A DNA stretch of 34,800 bases from positions 1 through 34,800 of the IMG/VR virus record IMGVR_UViG_3300045135_001505; one strand, written 5' to 3'. Of the stretch, positions 13,612 to 34,800 are shown one piece after another (the first letter of the stretch is position 1; every line of letters begins with the position of its first letter). A program made the position numbers and the translations under genes. Source of the DNA: a virus. Under the pieces are notes generated by a model. That model ran no database searches. It had not been told where the DNA came from and was given only the letters and a program-made list of their open reading frames with translations.

Positions 13612-14013
13612 TTAGAATGGTATGTCATCGTCGAAATTGTCGAAATTAGTCATTGGCGCGCTAGTAGCCAGTTCCTGAGTTGTTGCCTCGACCGTCTCTG
13701 GCGTGTACACCAATTCGATGGTTACAGCCACGATCTGAGTTTTGTAGACTTTATGCTTCTCGCCGCAGTCATGCTCCCGATCGTAACTAGAAGTCTGTAG
13801 CCTGCCTTCAACGTAGAGCCTAGAACCCTTGTGGACGTACTTTGATAGGAAGTTATCCACAACGGCCCCGAATGCTACGCAGTCGTGATAGGTCGCCGTG
13901 TCTTTGAAATTGGTAGCCAGTGTGAAATTAGCCACCGATACATCGCCTGAGTTTCGGATACTAGGGTCCTTGACCACCGTACCGACTATGATTGCTTTGT
14001 TTACGCCTTTCAT
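13612..14013 (-). CDS. ssb: Single-stranded DNA-binding protein
   Basis: The product is 133 residues. The OB-fold opens with MKGVNKAIIVGTVVKDPSIR and contains VANFTLATN, the YHDCVAFG segment and LYVEGRLQT, all standard SSB features. A Thr/Ala-rich linker follows, and the protein ends in FDDDIPF, the acidic tip that recruits SSB partner proteins such as RecO, PriA and exonuclease I in bacteria. It coats ssDNA during replication and recombination. The start overlaps the exonuclease stop by ATGA, so the two are co-translated. Confidence 0.95.
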   Translation of the reverse strand: MKGVNKAIIVGTVVKDPSIRNSGDVSVANFTLATNFKDTATYHDCVAFGAVVDNFLSKYVHKGSRLYVEGRLQTSSYDREHDCGEKHKVYKTQIVAVTIELVYTPETVEATTQELATSAPMTNFDNFDDDIPF

Positions 14014-14648
14014 GAGAATAATCCATTCCAGTTAAATTTATCGACGCCATCCTCAATGAGCAGAACGGCTTCCTGTAGGTGTACAGCTAACTCGTTGATG
14101 AGGTCATCGTCCCTGTAAGTACGGACAATCAGCGGCTTCATCTTCGGGTGATAGGACATGAAGTCCCAGTAGCCTCTACCCGTTACAAACATGCACCCTT
14201 GTACCTGGAGCATGTACTTTGAAGGCACTTTACCCGCCCTCAAATACTCAACGTGCGTCCCCTGTAGTGGGCATTTGATCTCTAGCCCCCCTATCAGCCC
14301 ACGGTCGCACTTCACATCTATCAACCCGTCAGGGCTGCACCCCACCTCCATATTGGGGTGTTTGATGAAATCCACCTGTCTAACCTCAGTATCATTGATA
14401 AGCTGGTACATGGCTCTGGCTTCATCTTCCAAGCTAGTGCCGCGCTCCATTGGCTCGGTGATCTTGACGTAGGTGGGATCTCCGGTCAGTTTCTCGGCTA
14501 TCAGGGCGTTCACATAGCCCATGAAGGACGTACTACGCTGACCCTTGGTGGTTACTACCTTGCTGAAGTTTGACGCGCTAGGGACGCCCAGACGGGCTTG
14601 TAACCACTCTTCAGTGCCTTGCCCGCCACATTCTATTTCTCTAGTCAT
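14010..14648 (-). CDS. YqaJ/lambda-type 5'-3' exonuclease
   Basis: The product is 212 residues. The motifs are GTEEWLQARLGVPSASNFS at 11-29, GTSLEDEAR at 70-78, SPDGLID with Asp107, and the catalytic LEIKCP with Glu123 and Lys125. This is the PD-(D/E)xK order of YqaJ/Red-alpha exonucleases, which resect duplex DNA ends to leave 3' single strands. The partner is the Sak/DUF1071-like annealing protein a few genes upstream, giving a Red-type recombination pair. It is flanked by SSB (4-base overlap) and a small unknown gene (8-base overlap). Confidence 0.9.
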   Translation of the reverse strand: MTREIECGGQGTEEWLQARLGVPSASNFSKVVTTKGQRSTSFMGYVNALIAEKLTGDPTYVKITEPMERGTSLEDEARAMYQLINDTEVRQVDFIKHPNMEVGCSPDGLIDVKCDRGLIGGLEIKCPLQGTHVEYLRAGKVPSKYMLQVQGCMFVTGRGYWDFMSYHPKMKPLIVRTYRDDDLINELAVHLQEAVLLIEDGVDKFNWNGLFS

Positions 14649-14862: not shown

Positions 14863-15230
14863 CGGTAATTATCCTCATAATATGCTGGTGTTAATTCAGG
14901 AAGGTTGGTTGCCTTGCTATCCTCAGACGTTTGCTTTCGGGTCCGAAAAAACCCGTCATGCTGTGGATAAGCCGCCATAAACCGCCGTGCGTAGAAGGCT
15001 CGGTAGTTGTTGTTTAACTTGAATCTAGCGTCTTTCAAATGCTCACTAGTGCCAAGGATTACGTCCTGCTCCCACCTGATTCGCTCGAATATGGCGTTGA
15101 CAGAGTAATTCTTGAACCCCTTGCGGAGTACCTCAAAGGTAAACCGCTTGAACAGATCCCAGACTATCGGGTGTTGTCTATGGAAATCCTCTACCTGTTC
15201 CCGCATTTCCTCTTTGCGTGTCTTAGGCAT
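14859..15230 (-). CDS. Conserved-type phage protein of unknown function (123 aa)
   Basis: The product is basic and helical. Notable segments are HPIVWDLFKRFTFEVLRKGF, FERIRWEQDV and FKLNNNYRAFYARRFMAAYP, followed by HDGFFRTRKQTSE. The aromatic and Arg-rich FKLNNNYRAFYARRF block is of a type I have seen in phage hypothetical proteins next to recombination genes, and it looks like a nucleic-acid-binding surface. It overlaps both neighbours (8 and 4 bases). I know of no assigned function. Confidence 0.75.
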   Translation of the reverse strand: MPKTRKEEMREQVEDFHRQHPIVWDLFKRFTFEVLRKGFKNYSVNAIFERIRWEQDVILGTSEHLKDARFKLNNNYRAFYARRFMAAYPQHDGFFRTRKQTSEDSKATNLPELTPAYYEDNYR

Positions 15231-15813
15231 CCGCAGCCCCCTGCCTCTCCAGCATTAATTTAATTTTTTGGGTCTTTTTCTTGTTCAGCATGGCTTTAGC
15301 TGTCTCAAACTGATCAACCTGTAGCTGATCCAGTTTGGTGATCTTGAACGCCTCACAGAACTTGGATTCTAAGGTTTTAGTCTCCACCATCAGGTCCACT
15401 ATCTCTCTGGCCTGATCAGGGCTGATCAACTGGACCTTTTGTCGCGGAACGCCCTCACCTTGGTAGATATAGAACCCTAGCCCGAACATCGCCATATTCT
15501 TAGTGAAGCACCGCATGCGGGCGTCTGATATGTCATCGCAGCTTGGATTCTGGATAGCCTGGTTCTTATGATCAGTGACAGCGAGCCACATTGGGCGGGT
15601 GATGCCATTGATCTCCATTTCAGTGTGCACAGTGACAGAGCCGTCACCATGGACCTGATCCGGTAGTTCGCGGAATATCGCGCTCGGGTACACCTCCATT
15701 AAAGTAGCCCAAGCGAAATTCCAAGGTAGGTAGTCAAACTTCCCCTTCTGCTTCTTATGTTTATTAACATCGATAGCAGAGAGGGTTTCCCAGATATGTT
15801 TGGCTTCACTCAT
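15223..15813 (-). CDS. Sak/DUF1071-like single-strand annealing protein
   Basis: I chose the ATG at 15813 (196 residues) because GGGAGG lies 6 bases upstream. An earlier ATG at 15855 would add 14 unlikely residues. The N-terminus WETLSAIDVNKHKKQKGKF and then YLPWNFAWATLMEVYPSAIF are characteristic of DUF1071/Sak annealing proteins. A predicted beta core follows (GDGSVTVHTEMEINGITRPMW), then DDISDARMRCFTKNMAMFGLGFYIY. Such proteins anneal complementary single strands covered by SSB and work with the YqaJ exonuclease. The C-terminus is Lys-rich. The gene opens with an 8-base overlap with the 65-residue gene. Confidence 0.85.
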   Translation of the reverse strand: MSEAKHIWETLSAIDVNKHKKQKGKFDYLPWNFAWATLMEVYPSAIFRELPDQVHGDGSVTVHTEMEINGITRPMWLAVTDHKNQAIQNPSCDDISDARMRCFTKNMAMFGLGFYIYQGEGVPRQKVQLISPDQAREIVDLMVETKTLESKFCEAFKITKLDQLQVDQFETAKAMLNKKKTQKIKLMLERQGAADA

Positions 15814-16003
15814 CGTCAGCCTCCCTGAGTTCCTGCGTATGGACGCTAATCTCACGGGCAGTACCTGTGCCTATGTCGGACAGAAACTGGTCTACAACGG
15901 CCTGTACGGACTCGTCGTGGCTTGCCAGATGGGGGTTGCGGATATACTCGACTAAGGCTTGCGCCTCAAGGCCGTCAACAACGATTAAGCTAGACTTACG
16001 CAT
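15806..16003 (-). CDS. Small hypothetical protein (65 aa)
   Basis: This is an acidic, probably helical protein without a recognised family (MRKSSLIVVDGLEAQALVEY start, Glu/Asp-rich end). It lies 2 bases after the first gene of the operon, and its stop overlaps the annealing-protein start by 8 bases. The coupling to the annealing protein is the main evidence that it is real. Confidence 0.65.
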   Translation of the reverse strand: MRKSSLIVVDGLEAQALVEYIRNPHLASHDESVQAVVDQFLSDIGTGTAREISVHTQELREADDE

Positions 16004-19908: not shown

Positions 19909-20311
19909 AAATGGCCGTCAGGGTGAAGGTGGTGGCCGCCCTATGGTTGTTCTGAATGAGGAGCAAAAGCAGAAATTAGCTTGGATGGCTCCTTATTTGA
20001 CCATAGAGATGATGGCTGACTCCTTGGAGATTAACAGATCAACATTCCAAGAGATTTTAAAGCGAGATCCTGAGGTTGCCGGTATATATCACAAGTATAA
20101 GAGTGATAAGGTCGCAGAAGTGGCTTCTAGCCTCGTTAACAAGGCCAGAGACGGCGATACGAGAGCGGCTATGTTCTACCTAAGGACTCAGGGAAGATGG
20201 CGTGAAGAGGGCCACACGGCGTCTGAGAGGCCCCAGATTCAAATCAATGTTTCGTCTATGCCTCAGATTGAGGAAGTAAAAGGAGATGTCATTGAGCCAG
20301 AAGCTGATTGA
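19886..20311 (+). CDS. Terminase small subunit-like DNA-binding protein
   Basis: I start at the ATG at 19886 (141 residues) rather than a TTG 18 bases earlier. A Lys/Arg/Gly-rich N-terminus precedes a helix-turn-helix-like segment, KLAWMAPYLTIEMMADSLEI then NRSTFQEILKRDPEV. Further helices follow (DKVAEVASSLVNKARDGDTR) before AMFYLRTQGRWREE. The pattern and the position ahead of the terminase gene fit the small packaging subunit, which binds the pac site and hands DNA to the large subunit. The lysozyme and small basic genes lie between the two subunits. Confidence 0.72.
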   Translation: MSQPVKTKNGRQGEGGGRPMVVLNEEQKQKLAWMAPYLTIEMMADSLEINRSTFQEILKRDPEVAGIYHKYKSDKVAEVASSLVNKARDGDTRAAMFYLRTQGRWREEGHTASERPQIQINVSSMPQIEEVKGDVIEPEAD

Positions 20312-20732
20312 CCAACTCGCTATTCATGAAGGTGTTAAGCGTTTTGCCTATAAATGCCCTGCGGGTAAGTGGACTATAGGCGTAGGGCGTAATATCGATG
20401 AAGATGGTGGTATTGGGCTGTCTGATGCTGAGGTGTATACCCTGCTTAGGAATGATGTGGCCCGTGTAGATCGTGAGTTGGATGAAGCCTTCGAGTGGTA
20501 TAGTTTGTTAGATCAGGTGCGTAAGGACGCCTTGTGTAACCTGTCTTTTAACTTAGGTATGCCTAGACTGATGAAGTTTCAAAAGGCTCTAGGACATCTT
20601 GCTGCTGACCGATATAAAGAGAGTGCTGAGGAGTTCCTAGACTCGTTATGGGCTACTCAGGTAGGTCAGAGGGCGTTGGATGTAGCGCATATGGTTGAAT
20701 TTGGAGAATATCCTGATGGGAATGGGAGTTAA
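20286..20732 (+). CDS. GH24 (T4-type) lysozyme, endolysin
   Basis: The product is 148 residues. The catalytic pattern E-x8-C-x5-T is seen as Glu15, Cys24 and Thr30 within IHEGVKRFAYKCPAGKWTIG. This is the muramidase active site, with Cys in place of the T4 Asp20, a recognised variant. Later segments (CNLSFNLGMPRLMKFQKAL) match the helical domain. No signal peptide is present, so a holin or other export route is needed. A TTG at 20292 has better spacing from AGGAG than the ATG, so translation may start there. It lies among packaging genes, far from the membrane lysis cassette. Confidence 0.9.
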   Translation: MSLSQKLIDQLAIHEGVKRFAYKCPAGKWTIGVGRNIDEDGGIGLSDAEVYTLLRNDVARVDRELDEAFEWYSLLDQVRKDALCNLSFNLGMPRLMKFQKALGHLAADRYKESAEEFLDSLWATQVGQRALDVAHMVEFGEYPDGNGS

Positions 20733-31998: not shown

Positions 31999-32214
31999 AT
32001 GGTTCACGTTTTTGTATTAATTATGACCATCGAAGGTGTGGAGGTAGCTAACGACTCCTGTCGGGAGGCTATGTGCTTTTTTAATTTAGACACCTGCAAT
32101 AGTTTTGCGGCTAAGTTACGAAGAAGAGGATCTCCAAGTACATCAATTAACATAACGGCTTATTGTAAGCCAATACTTGTAGATCCTAACCAGGACGGTG
32201 TAAAGGTTTACTAA
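31999..32214 (+). CDS. Small cysteine-containing protein (71 aa)
   Basis: A hydrophobic start (MVHVFVLIMTIEGVEV) is followed by a Cys-rich stretch with CREAMCFF and LDTCNSFAAKLRRR, then TAYCKPILVD. Four cysteines in a short chain could form disulfides, but the N-terminus lacks a good signal-peptide cleavage site. The protein resembles small conserved phage proteins whose function I do not know. It ends on the start of the next gene (TAATG) at the head of the membrane cassette. Confidence 0.68.
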   Translation: MVHVFVLIMTIEGVEVANDSCREAMCFFNLDTCNSFAAKLRRRGSPSTSINITAYCKPILVDPNQDGVKVY

Positions 32215-32684
32215 TGGCTGTTGCAGAAATAGGAATGCTTATTGCTGGAGCCAGAAAAGCAGTGCAGTTTTGTGAGGCGGTAGCAGAAGCAAACGGTGAT
32301 TTTCAGCAGTGTGTAGGTAAGATTCAGACCTTTTTTAATTGCGCTGATGCGATTAAAGAAGAAGAAGTAAAAGCGGAAAGCGGCGATTACTTTTCGCGAA
32401 ACAGCCCAGAAGCTGAAGCACTACAGAACTTAAATGCTCGATATCAAATGGAGCAGATGGAAAACCAGCTCCGCACTTTAATTGTGTGGAATATGTCCGA
32501 ACAACATTATAAGGACATGATGCGTGATAGAAAACGCATACGAGAAAGAAGATTAGAAATTGCTAAAGCTAGAGCAGCGAGACGTAAGATTATGATTGAT
32601 GGCACATTTGTATTAGGCTGCGCTATGCTTGGTTTTGGTCTTATTTGGTACACAGCATTTTTGATTATTGGATATGCAGAGTAA
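32214..32684 (+). CDS. Membrane protein with C-terminal anchor (156 aa)
   Basis: The N-terminal half is helical (AEIGMLIAGARKAVQFCEAV; QQCVGKIQTFFNCADAIKEE). A strongly basic helix follows (RDRKRIRERRLEIAKARAARRK), and then a hydrophobic segment at about 128-152 (TFVLGCAMLGFGLIWYTAFLII). One membrane span with a positively charged cytoplasmic face is likely. It shares TAATG junctions with its neighbours in a cassette of membrane genes. A holin-accessory or other lysis role is plausible by position, not shown. Confidence 0.68.
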   Translation: MAVAEIGMLIAGARKAVQFCEAVAEANGDFQQCVGKIQTFFNCADAIKEEEVKAESGDYFSRNSPEAEALQNLNARYQMEQMENQLRTLIVWNMSEQHYKDMMRDRKRIRERRLEIAKARAARRKIMIDGTFVLGCAMLGFGLIWYTAFLIIGYAE

Positions 32685-32905
32685 TGGAATACCAACTTTT
32701 ATTTAACATAATTATTGCGGTTGCTGGGTTTTTAGGCGGCGTATTAGTCAACAGAGTATTTTCTACATTAGATAAAATAAATGACGAGTTAAAGATTATC
32801 CCAGAGAAGTATGTTGCTAAGGATGACTACCGAGAGGACATCCGCGAGATTAAAGAAACCCTTGGCGCAATTTTTAAGAAATTAGATAACAAGGCAGAAA
32901 AATGA
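32684..32905 (+). CDS. Small membrane protein with coiled-coil tail (73 aa)
   Basis: The ATG at 32684 shares a base with the upstream stop. A hydrophobic N-terminal segment (QLLFNIIIAVAGFLGGVLV) is followed by a charged helix (DKINDELKIIPEKYVAKDDY, DIREIKETLGAIFKKLDNK). The topology recalls a short i-spanin or a holin-like protein. It is followed by the lipase gene with a 4-base overlap (ATGA). I favour a lysis-membrane role and cannot choose between the alternatives. Confidence 0.65.
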   Translation: MEYQLLFNIIIAVAGFLGGVLVNRVFSTLDKINDELKIIPEKYVAKDDYREDIREIKETLGAIFKKLDNKAEK

Positions 32906-33588
32906 AGATAGATCCTGTTTTGCTAAATATGGCATGTAGCTGGTCAATAAAGGCTTACAACGACAAAAATAAAAATGCCATCAAAATCGAAAACAAGCTA
33001 ACGGGTGCAACTGCATTTGTTGTTAAACGCAAAACAATAGACGTTATTGTATTTAGAGGCACACAAAAAAAAGTAAACGACATACTGACTGACATGTGTG
33101 TAGTGCCAGTACCTTATGCCGGTAGGCTGTGTCATGGTGGGTTTGTAGCGCAGCATGCCTCAATATGGGGCAAGATTAAAAAGCACTTAGATCCTAAAAA
33201 GCGCACATTGATCTGTGGGCATAGCTTGGGTGGTGCGTTAGCCGAATTATCTGCGGCTAAGTTAAACGGCAAACATGACAATATAAACCTAATAACTTTT
33301 GGCAAACCGAATGTGTTTTTTAAAGGATTTAAACGCCCAATGACATTAGACACACAGATATCGTGTGTACAGGGCAGCGACATGGTGGCTAGAGTCCCAA
33401 GACTTTGTTATGGCCCCTCAATATCTCAAGACATGCTGTATTTCAGCAATACTGGCGGTACGTTTATAAACCCCCAGAAAAGTTTCCGAATAGCGGATCG
33501 TGGCGGTTTGAAAGACCGTGTAACCGATCATTATATGGATGGATATAAAGCATCGTTAACCCGTTTCCTTGAGGAGGAAAACAAATGA
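32902..33588 (+). CDS. Class 3 lipase (alpha/beta hydrolase)
   Basis: The product is 228 residues. The nucleophile elbow GHSLGG is at 106-111 with Ser108. The catalytic Asp lies in GSDMVARVP (Asp160) and His in TDHYMDGY (His210). Other Lipase_3 features are FRGT at 51-54 and HGGF at 78-81. The expected reaction is hydrolysis of ester bonds in glycerolipids or related lipids. There is no signal peptide. It overlaps the small membrane gene and the lipoprotein gene by ATGA, so it belongs to the late membrane cassette. A role in membrane damage at lysis or in altering host lipids is inference. Confidence 0.9.
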   Translation: MKIDPVLLNMACSWSIKAYNDKNKNAIKIENKLTGATAFVVKRKTIDVIVFRGTQKKVNDILTDMCVVPVPYAGRLCHGGFVAQHASIWGKIKKHLDPKKRTLICGHSLGGALAELSAAKLNGKHDNINLITFGKPNVFFKGFKRPMTLDTQISCVQGSDMVARVPRLCYGPSISQDMLYFSNTGGTFINPQKSFRIADRGGLKDRVTDHYMDGYKASLTRFLEEENK

Positions 33589-33815
33589 GATTAGCCGTCA
33601 TACTGTCGTTTATGGTCCTGTCTAGCTGCACATCAGTGCAAGACGTTATAGATAACAAAGAAATCTATTGTAGTCAGTTCTATAAAGGTATTAGGGCAGT
33701 AGGTAGATCTGCTTTGTCGGCTACAGCGGGTGTGGTGGTTCCTGACGTATGTGACACGATTGATGAAATTGTCGCGGAGGAAAACGCTGATAGCGTAGAC
33801 AAAAGCGATAGCTGA
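33585..33815 (+). CDS. Small lipoprotein, possible o-spanin (76 aa)
   Basis: The N-terminus MRLAVILSFMVLSSCTS is a lipoprotein signal with lipobox LSSC and Cys15. The mature part is short and ends acidic (DEIVAEENADSVDKSDS). Outer-membrane spanin subunits are short lipoproteins of this form, and the gene lies beside a small membrane protein and a holin-like gene. It overlaps the lipase stop by ATGA. It lacks the Pro-rich stretch typical of Rz1, so superinfection exclusion or another periplasmic role is possible. Confidence 0.72.
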   Translation: MRLAVILSFMVLSSCTSVQDVIDNKEIYCSQFYKGIRAVGRSALSATAGVVVPDVCDTIDEIVAEENADSVDKSDS

Positions 33816-33851: not shown

Positions 33852-34325
33852 ATGAAACTAGGTGGATTACTAAAGTCCCTTGCTCCAACGATCGCTAGTG
33901 CTGCTGGCGGCCCGATGGCAGGGATGGCTGTTAAGATGGCAGCGCAGAAGCTAGGTATGCCAGAGGCTACTGCTAATGAAATCGAGGATCTTATTGAGCG
34001 AGAACCTGAAAAAGCGGTATTGCTTAAAGAGGCCGATAAAGACTTTAAGAACCGCATCCGTGAAATGGAGATAGATCTTGAATCTTTTAAGACTGAGGTC
34101 GAAGATCGTAAGGATGCTAGATCTAGGTTCTCAGGGGATATAACCCCTAAAGTGTTTTGTATATTAGCGTTGCTGTTATATGGAGCGTATGTAATGGCTG
34201 TAACTATTATGCCGCACGATCAGAACGACGAGACTATCATTAGCCTAGTTCTAGGCCAGTTGAGCGGTATTTTGGGTACTTGTGCTGCGTTTTTCTACGG
34301 CGGCTCTAACGGTAAAGGTAGTTAA
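33852..34325 (+). CDS. Holin-like protein (GTA-type 3TM holin)
   Basis: The product is 157 residues. An amphipathic hydrophobic N-terminus (GGLLKSLAPTIASAAGGPMA) precedes a charged helical middle (DKDFKNRIREMEIDLESFKT). Two transmembrane segments follow at about 99-118 (VFCILALLLYGAYVMAVTIM) and 130-150 (ISLVLGQLSGILGTCAAFFY). This layout resembles Holin_3TM proteins from phages and gene transfer agents. It would open the inner membrane to release the lysozyme encoded near 20.3 kb. It closes the membrane cassette, directly before the giant virion gene. Confidence 0.8.
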   Translation: MKLGGLLKSLAPTIASAAGGPMAGMAVKMAAQKLGMPEATANEIEDLIEREPEKAVLLKEADKDFKNRIREMEIDLESFKTEVEDRKDARSRFSGDITPKVFCILALLLYGAYVMAVTIMPHDQNDETIISLVLGQLSGILGTCAAFFYGGSNGKGS

Positions 34326-34327
34326 GT

Positions 34328-34800
34328 ATGTCTGAACACAGCGGCATTTGGTCTAGATCACCTTTGCATGGTCAGTCTTCTGGGATTGGGTTCTACTCTG
34401 AGGGACTAGCAGGGATATTTAATCAAATTCTGCAAGACAGTGCTGCAAGAGCGTATATGGCAACAGAAGGCATGTATACCGCTACGGAAGCAATGTTTGA
34501 AGATGCTTACCTAGCATTGCGCGATATACAGATGACTGTTCCTGAGCAACAGCAACCTGATGCTATTGCTGAGTTTTTACGAAATACAGGATTTAGCTCT
34601 CATGTTGTAGAGCAAACATTAGGCATACCAAGAGAGTATGTTGATTTTGCATTAGAACAAGCAGGATATGACTATCAAGGTAATCCTTTAAGTGTAGAAA
34701 ATTTAACTCAAAACGAACTTATTACTAACAATTTATTAGATGCTGGTTTCTCTGCTTCTGACGCAAATATGCTTGCTGATGTATTAACAGATGAACCAAC
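34328..34800 (+). CDS. Giant repeat-rich virion protein, N-terminal part (continues at 1)
   Basis: The ATG follows the holin stop by 2 bases, with AAAGGTAG upstream. The frame stays open to the window end and continues in the same frame at position 3. This part encodes the first 157 residues, including the overlap: SGIWSRSPLHGQSSGIGFYS, then a helical stretch with Met/Ala/Thr (DSAARAYMATEGMYTATEAM), QQQPDAIAEFLRNTGF, and a Leu/Asn-rich segment entering the repeated region. Read alone, the rest of the gene looks like a protein starting at an internal Met at position 96. Confidence 0.9.
   Translation, partial: MSEHSGIWSRSPLHGQSSGIGFYSEGLAGIFNQILQDSAARAYMATEGMYTATEAMFEDAYLALRDIQMTVPEQQQPDAIAEFLRNTGFSSHVVEQTLGIPREYVDFALEQAGYDYQGNPLSVENLTQNELITNNLLDAGFSASDANMLADVLTDEP
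34674..34800. repeat. Terminal direct repeat, right copy
   Basis: This is identical to bases 1-127. Removing one copy gives a closed unit of 34,673 bp and a single 1219-residue frame over the junction. Confidence 0.95.

Follow-up and report, generated by a model that had tools for sequence, protein, structure and literature searches.

Why a phage should carry a lipase gene among its genes for small membrane proteins, and whether the product takes part in lysis, is the question raised by a locus in the stretch of DNA analysed here (34,800 nucleotides, the whole of IMG/VR record IMGVR_UViG_3300045135_001505; hereafter the window). The record represents a complete phage genome with an exact 127-bp end repeat (positions 1-127 equal 34674-34800), so that the genome is circular with a length of 34,673 bp, and the reading frames left open at either end join across the junction into a single gene of 1,219 codons (34328 through to 3314). 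Genes for terminase, portal and major capsid protein can be recognised, and the portal bears a distant likeness to the portals of marine phages in the HMO-2011 group. The early block holds a recombination pair, consisting of a YqaJ-like recombinase and a Sak single-strand annealing protein (14010-14648 and 15223-15855, both on the minus strand). Promoter-like matches were fewer than in shuffled sequences and terminator-like matches about equal to them, and both were uninformative. The genes that matter for the question are listed below, the first six lines giving the gene order around the lipase.

31999-32214, plus strand: 71-aa protein, a usual upstream member of the cluster
32214-32684, plus strand: 156-aa protein with a C-terminal transmembrane (TM) segment, a usual upstream member of the cluster
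32690-32905, plus strand: 71-aa protein with one N-terminal TM segment and a charged, probably coiled tail (PHROG 462); ATG start at 32690
32902-33588, plus strand: class 3 lipase (Lipase_3, PF01764), 228 aa, ATG start; Ser108-Asp160-His210, oxyanion Thr54
33585-33815, plus strand: small lipoprotein, lipobox LSSC with Thr at +2; mature form of about 62 aa with two further conserved cysteines; overlaps the lipase stop by 4 bp
33852-34325, plus strand: holin-like protein of 157 aa in PHROG 1544 (unknown function), with two C-terminal segments that are strongly hydrophobic
20286-20732, plus strand: GH24-type phage lysozyme (PF00959, PHROG 7 endolysin)

The product of 32902-33588 is a member of the Lipase_3 family by score, catalytic triad and predicted fold. 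It matches Pfam PF01764 with an E-value of 3.3e-15 (56.6 bits, cut-off 22) and PHROG 21992 ('esterase/lipase') over residues 32-169 (E 3e-18), and the sequences of solved structures that it matches are those of fungal lipases and feruloyl esterase A (E about 1e-8). Ser108 lies in a GHSLG catalytic elbow, which is kept as such in 119 of 122 distinct relatives and reads GHSLA in the other three; Ser108, Asp160 and His210 are invariant in all 122 (and were so in an earlier, smaller set of 82), as is the oxyanion motif FRGT containing T54. The dN/dS ratio of 0.016-0.053 against the three closest relatives rules out a chance open reading frame. An AlphaFold2 model built on a 30-member alignment (pTM 0.87, pLDDT 86) is predicted to have the alpha/beta hydrolase fold of fungal lipases and feruloyl esterase; its best Foldseek matches, 2ix9, 1uwc, 3tgl and 6xok, are feruloyl esterase A and fungal lipases (E 1e-11 to 1e-8), and the TM-scores by query against fungal lipase-family structures were about 0.57-0.69. 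The first-pass annotation, which had proposed an intact class 3 lipase gene with a Ser108-Asp160-His210 triad and oxyanion features, is thus confirmed down to the positions of these residues, and the loss of catalytic residues in close relatives, which it had named as evidence to the contrary, was seen in none of the 122 distinct proteins. It was also right that the gene overlaps those for a small membrane protein and a lipoprotein, in each case by the 4 bp ATGA (32690-32905 on one side, 33585-33815 on the other).

With the Thermomyces and Rhizomucor lipases and feruloyl esterase A, the window protein shares the Pfam domain, the GHSLGG elbow, the order Ser-Asp-His, the oxyanion FRG[ST] and, as predicted, the fold. 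The fungal lipases of this family are secreted and have a mobile lid, whereas the phage-encoded protein is short (228 aa) and has neither a visible signal peptide nor any hydrophobic or TM segment. The likeness to PHROG 21992 is one of sequence, but PHROGs places that family in the class 'other' and states no lysis context for it.

To understand the setting of the gene, we turned to its relatives in IMG/VR viral contigs, where each scan returned 162-430 candidate lipase stretches. As these scans overlap and some contigs are repeated, the figures below count loci and not independent lineages; the distinct lipases form 20 clusters at 80% identity. Across this large family of marine phages, the lipase is near-obligately paired with a small lipoprotein gene. 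Among the first 208 loci, the lipoprotein family of the window came next after 175 of 176 lipase genes, overlapping or abutting them, and the 176th lipase (L202) is followed by an unrelated lipobox protein; in the other direction, a lipase was present upstream of every lipoprotein with room for one (175/175). Several loci (L113, L200, L201, L203, L204, L207 and L208) keep a holin-like or lysozyme gene and are without both lipase and lipoprotein, and no lipase occurs along the whole 60-kb contig of L203. We give a second count, by lipobox instead of family profile, because the simple lipobox test misses some family members. Under the strict version of this test, 124 of the 148 partners of distinct lipases passed, with lipases down to ~37% identity, as compared with 4 of 951 control genes (other genes of at least 150 aa from the same loci), and when the lipases were clustered at 60% identity the partners passed in 9 of 10 clusters. 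The 24 failures were mostly lipoproteins that the family profile detected. Within the lipoprotein family itself, 97 of 101 distinct members carry a lipobox, and the four misses include two fragments at contig starts and one sequence with unread bases.

The pairing extends to divergent members. Lipases of about 40% identity also have an overlapping or adjacent lipoprotein, which belongs to the window's family, to a diverged form of it (CAITxNLKDGYD...LPDPC) or to an unrelated CTQIEAL family, and a lysozyme or holin-like gene mostly follows. At one locus, a further small lipoprotein gene immediately precedes the lipase (L313:4835-5032), such that lipoproteins flank the enzyme on both sides. In the window, 33585-33815 is the only plausible lipoprotein gene of the whole genome. 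Its AlphaFold2 model was poor (pTM 0.40) and too low for a fold search.

The first-pass annotation had placed the lipase in a late membrane/lysis cassette. What holds of this description is the location next to a holin-like gene, joined in most relatives by a lysozyme close downstream; what does not hold for the window is the presence of the lysozyme, which is encoded at 20286-20732 (58.6 bits against PF00959, cut-off 22.3), 12 kb from the lipase and upstream of the terminase genes. Because the holin-like gene is followed by something other than a lysozyme gene, we had considered a loss of the endolysin in this phage, an idea that was dropped once the gene was found at that site. The order lipase, lipoprotein, holin-like protein, lysozyme is nearly constant across more than 200 viral loci, the lysozyme being downstream in 190 of 229 lipase loci and, in most relatives, after the holin-like gene. 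The other 39 comprise 23 with the window's type of downstream gene and 16 that end too soon to tell, and a group of relatives sharing the window's downstream genes likewise has no lysozyme in the cassette. The cassette sits within the structural block, beside a tail fibre assembly chaperone and a large structural gene. The structural genes downstream of it vary between loci, being of a 629-aa 'stabilization protein' type in 125 and of the window type in 23, so that one cassette order is seen against differing backgrounds. At two loci, genes are inserted between the lipoprotein and the holin-like gene (L043:1897-2379 and L059:3400-4305; a nuclease-like protein and a 301-aa acidic protein).

The reading of 33852-34325 as holin-like follows from three lines of evidence. 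At the equivalent place, phage DSL-LC04 encodes a PF11351 3-TM holin and an M15 endolysin; the window protein aligns with this holin at 22% identity over 77 residues, a part of its length, in a single comparison (E 6e-5); and a homologue in a Vibrio phage adjoins the endolysin of that phage. Neither the window protein nor several of its relatives matched GTA_holin_3TM (PF11351) itself.

Relatives with the lipase elsewhere and no lysis genes nearby had been named beforehand as evidence against a lysis role. Synteny proved uniform except in one locus, where a divergent lipase of 58% identity (L325:4977-5669) stands alone among early genes, with no lipoprotein and no lysis genes. The statement that lipases are rare in phages stood in part as well. 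A tblastn search of 50,697 named phage records with the lipase returned no matches at E ≤ 1e-3, and the family consensus at E ≤ 10 gave chance-level matches only, but the IMG/VR viral contigs gave the candidate stretches counted above. The lipase-lipoprotein pairing, the endolysin elsewhere in the genome and the complete, circular state of that genome are additions to the first-pass annotation.

The lipoprotein genes of these marine phages point to Gram-negative hosts. Metagenome-assembled genome (MAG) contigs among the loci (L082-L086) are labelled Gammaproteobacteria, Maricaulis, Verrucomicrobiales and Flavobacteriales; they were rejected as a source of host information, because they resemble binned phage contigs. 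One of them, the 49.6-kb NYWC01000113.1 (L082 and L084), carries the lysis cassette twice, in identical copies separated by 34 kb, which is consistent with a circular phage genome of ~34 kb that was written out more than once and placed in a bacterial bin.

A lipase that by its sequence would stay in the cytoplasm, encoded beside a holin-like gene and, in most relatives, a lysozyme, resembles in arrangement a lysis enzyme released by a holin. Given this arrangement and the precedents of LysB and the colicin release proteins, we judge lipid attack at the time of lysis to be the most likely function, and we lean, with modest confidence, towards the lipase and the lipoprotein acting together on envelope lipids at that point. 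The lipase would be made late, as its gene position suggests, and, having no signal peptide or hydrophobic segment, would be shut off from the lipids of the periplasm until the inner membrane is opened by the holin-like protein. It might then enter the periplasm together with the lysozyme and hydrolyse the acyl esters of lipids in the envelope, with the result that the outer membrane would fail once the peptidoglycan is lost. The lipobox with Thr at +2 would, by enterobacterial rules, sort the lipoprotein to the outer membrane, where it may dock, activate or complete the lipase, as their strict co-occurrence and gene overlap suggest.

This proposal is supported by gene context and draws on the conserved catalytic residues, the selection on the gene, the predicted fold, the synteny and the co-occurrence with the lipoprotein. 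Counting against it are the distance of 12 kb to the window's lysozyme; the indirect identification of the holin; the early, solitary lipase of L325; and the poor lipoprotein model, which gives no docking surface.

Among known systems, the pair could be the Gram-negative counterpart of LysB, the lipolytic enzyme that acts in the third step of lysis (PMC5707550). LysB, a mycolyl-arabinogalactan esterase of the mycobacteriophages Ms6 and D29 (PMC5707550, PMC6116114), is likewise an alpha/beta hydrolase of the serine type whose active site is lipolytic, and its gene shares a lysis cassette with those for holin and endolysin. Such a setting occurs in most relatives of the window, which itself has its endolysin elsewhere and a holin gene that is holin-like only. 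In contrast to the window protein, which belongs to Lipase_3 and whose gene is tied to that of a lipoprotein, LysB resembles cutinases and cleaves the mycolate link in mycobacteria, and among the matches listed from Pfam, PHROGs, PDB sequences and Foldseek there was none to LysB or a cutinase, the matches being to Lipase_3 and fungal lipases instead. A second precedent is provided by the bacteriocin release lipoproteins (colicin lysis proteins), which act with outer membrane phospholipase A (PMC9517006). There, too, a small lipoprotein and a lipid hydrolase release the contents of the cell, as we infer for the phage pair, but the enzyme is an integral outer membrane protein of the host, whereas both partners are here encoded as a phage gene pair. 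The titles and abstracts of the open-licence literature name no such lipase-lipoprotein pair in phages of Gram-negative bacteria.

The lipoprotein could instead be an o-spanin acting with the 71-aa TM protein (32690-32905) as i-spanin, the lipase being an accessory insertion between two spanin genes. Indeed, as in two-component spanins (Rz/Rz1; PMC6139136), genes for a small membrane protein and a small lipoprotein lie by a holin-like gene and, in relatives, an endolysin, and the sole plausible lipoprotein gene of this complete genome encodes a protein of the usual o-spanin size with periplasmic cysteines, with weak PHROG matches to Rz-like spanins (E 0.046 and 0.087). However, what the lipoprotein constantly accompanies is an enzyme and not the i-spanin-like protein. 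It tracks the lipase rather than the 71-aa protein, which was not recognised in about 45 loci having both lipase and lipoprotein (an unrelated i-spanin being possible there), and no lipoprotein with room upstream is without a lipase. Moreover, the 71-aa protein is i-spanin-like by anatomy only, and the positive charges after its TM segment disfavour the N-in, C-out topology of i-spanins. We therefore consider the spanin explanation unlikely.

Three further explanations place the action of the lipase before lysis or outside it. The enzyme might degrade host lipid during infection, for energy or membrane remodelling, and occupy the late block by chance, in line with the lipase matches in algal and giant viruses found in BFVD and with the lipase of L325 among early genes. 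The fixed place beside holin-like and lysozyme genes and the near-obligate lipoprotein pairing over about 37-100% identity make such auxiliary metabolism quite unlikely, and to our knowledge metabolic genes are not usually kept bound to a lysis cassette. A role in the envelope before lysis is also conceivable, since some small lipoproteins of phages have a known role in superinfection exclusion, and secretion systems supply their lipase effectors with dedicated immunity proteins: the lipoprotein could, for example, exclude superinfecting phages or mask receptors while the lipase changes surface lipids, or it could be an immunity partner that shields the producing cell from its own lipase. In line with this idea, the lipase is seen paired with members of at least two lipoprotein families, one of which has diverged forms; the late position with lysis genes speaks against it, as does the lack of an export signal, owing to which the lipase would meet periplasmic lipid only after a hole has been made, and we hold it to be very unlikely. 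Lastly, the location of the cassette inside the structural block, next to the chaperone and the large structural gene, would suit an enzyme carried with the virion and either injected or active during entry. Yet the lipase is coupled directly to the lysis and lipoprotein genes and stays with them when the structural block changes, which renders this option highly improbable.

Lipid attack at lysis, the function that we favour, would bear on how Gram-negative hosts are opened. Lipolytic lysis enzymes are already known for another envelope type, that of the hosts of mycobacteriophages. According to PMC12819732, which cites the survey PMC6139136, about 13% of the tailed phages that infect Gram-negative bacteria are without a recognisable spanin, and whether these carry disruptins or other outer-membrane disruptors is an open question. 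The lipase family, present on hundreds of viral contigs from the sea but in none of the named phage records searched, provides a concrete candidate for an outer-membrane disruptor. That the pair constitutes a class of its own, apart from both spanins and disruptins, is a tentative and rather doubtful extension of this proposal; in this two-part enzymatic system, used by a large group of marine phages, the lipoprotein would guide the lipase, once released through the holin, to dissolve the outer membrane of Gram-negative hosts. If lipids are indeed attacked in this way, their hydrolysis would no longer be a speciality of mycobacteriophages but a last step of lysis in general, with consequences for the form in which the lipids of the host enter sea water.
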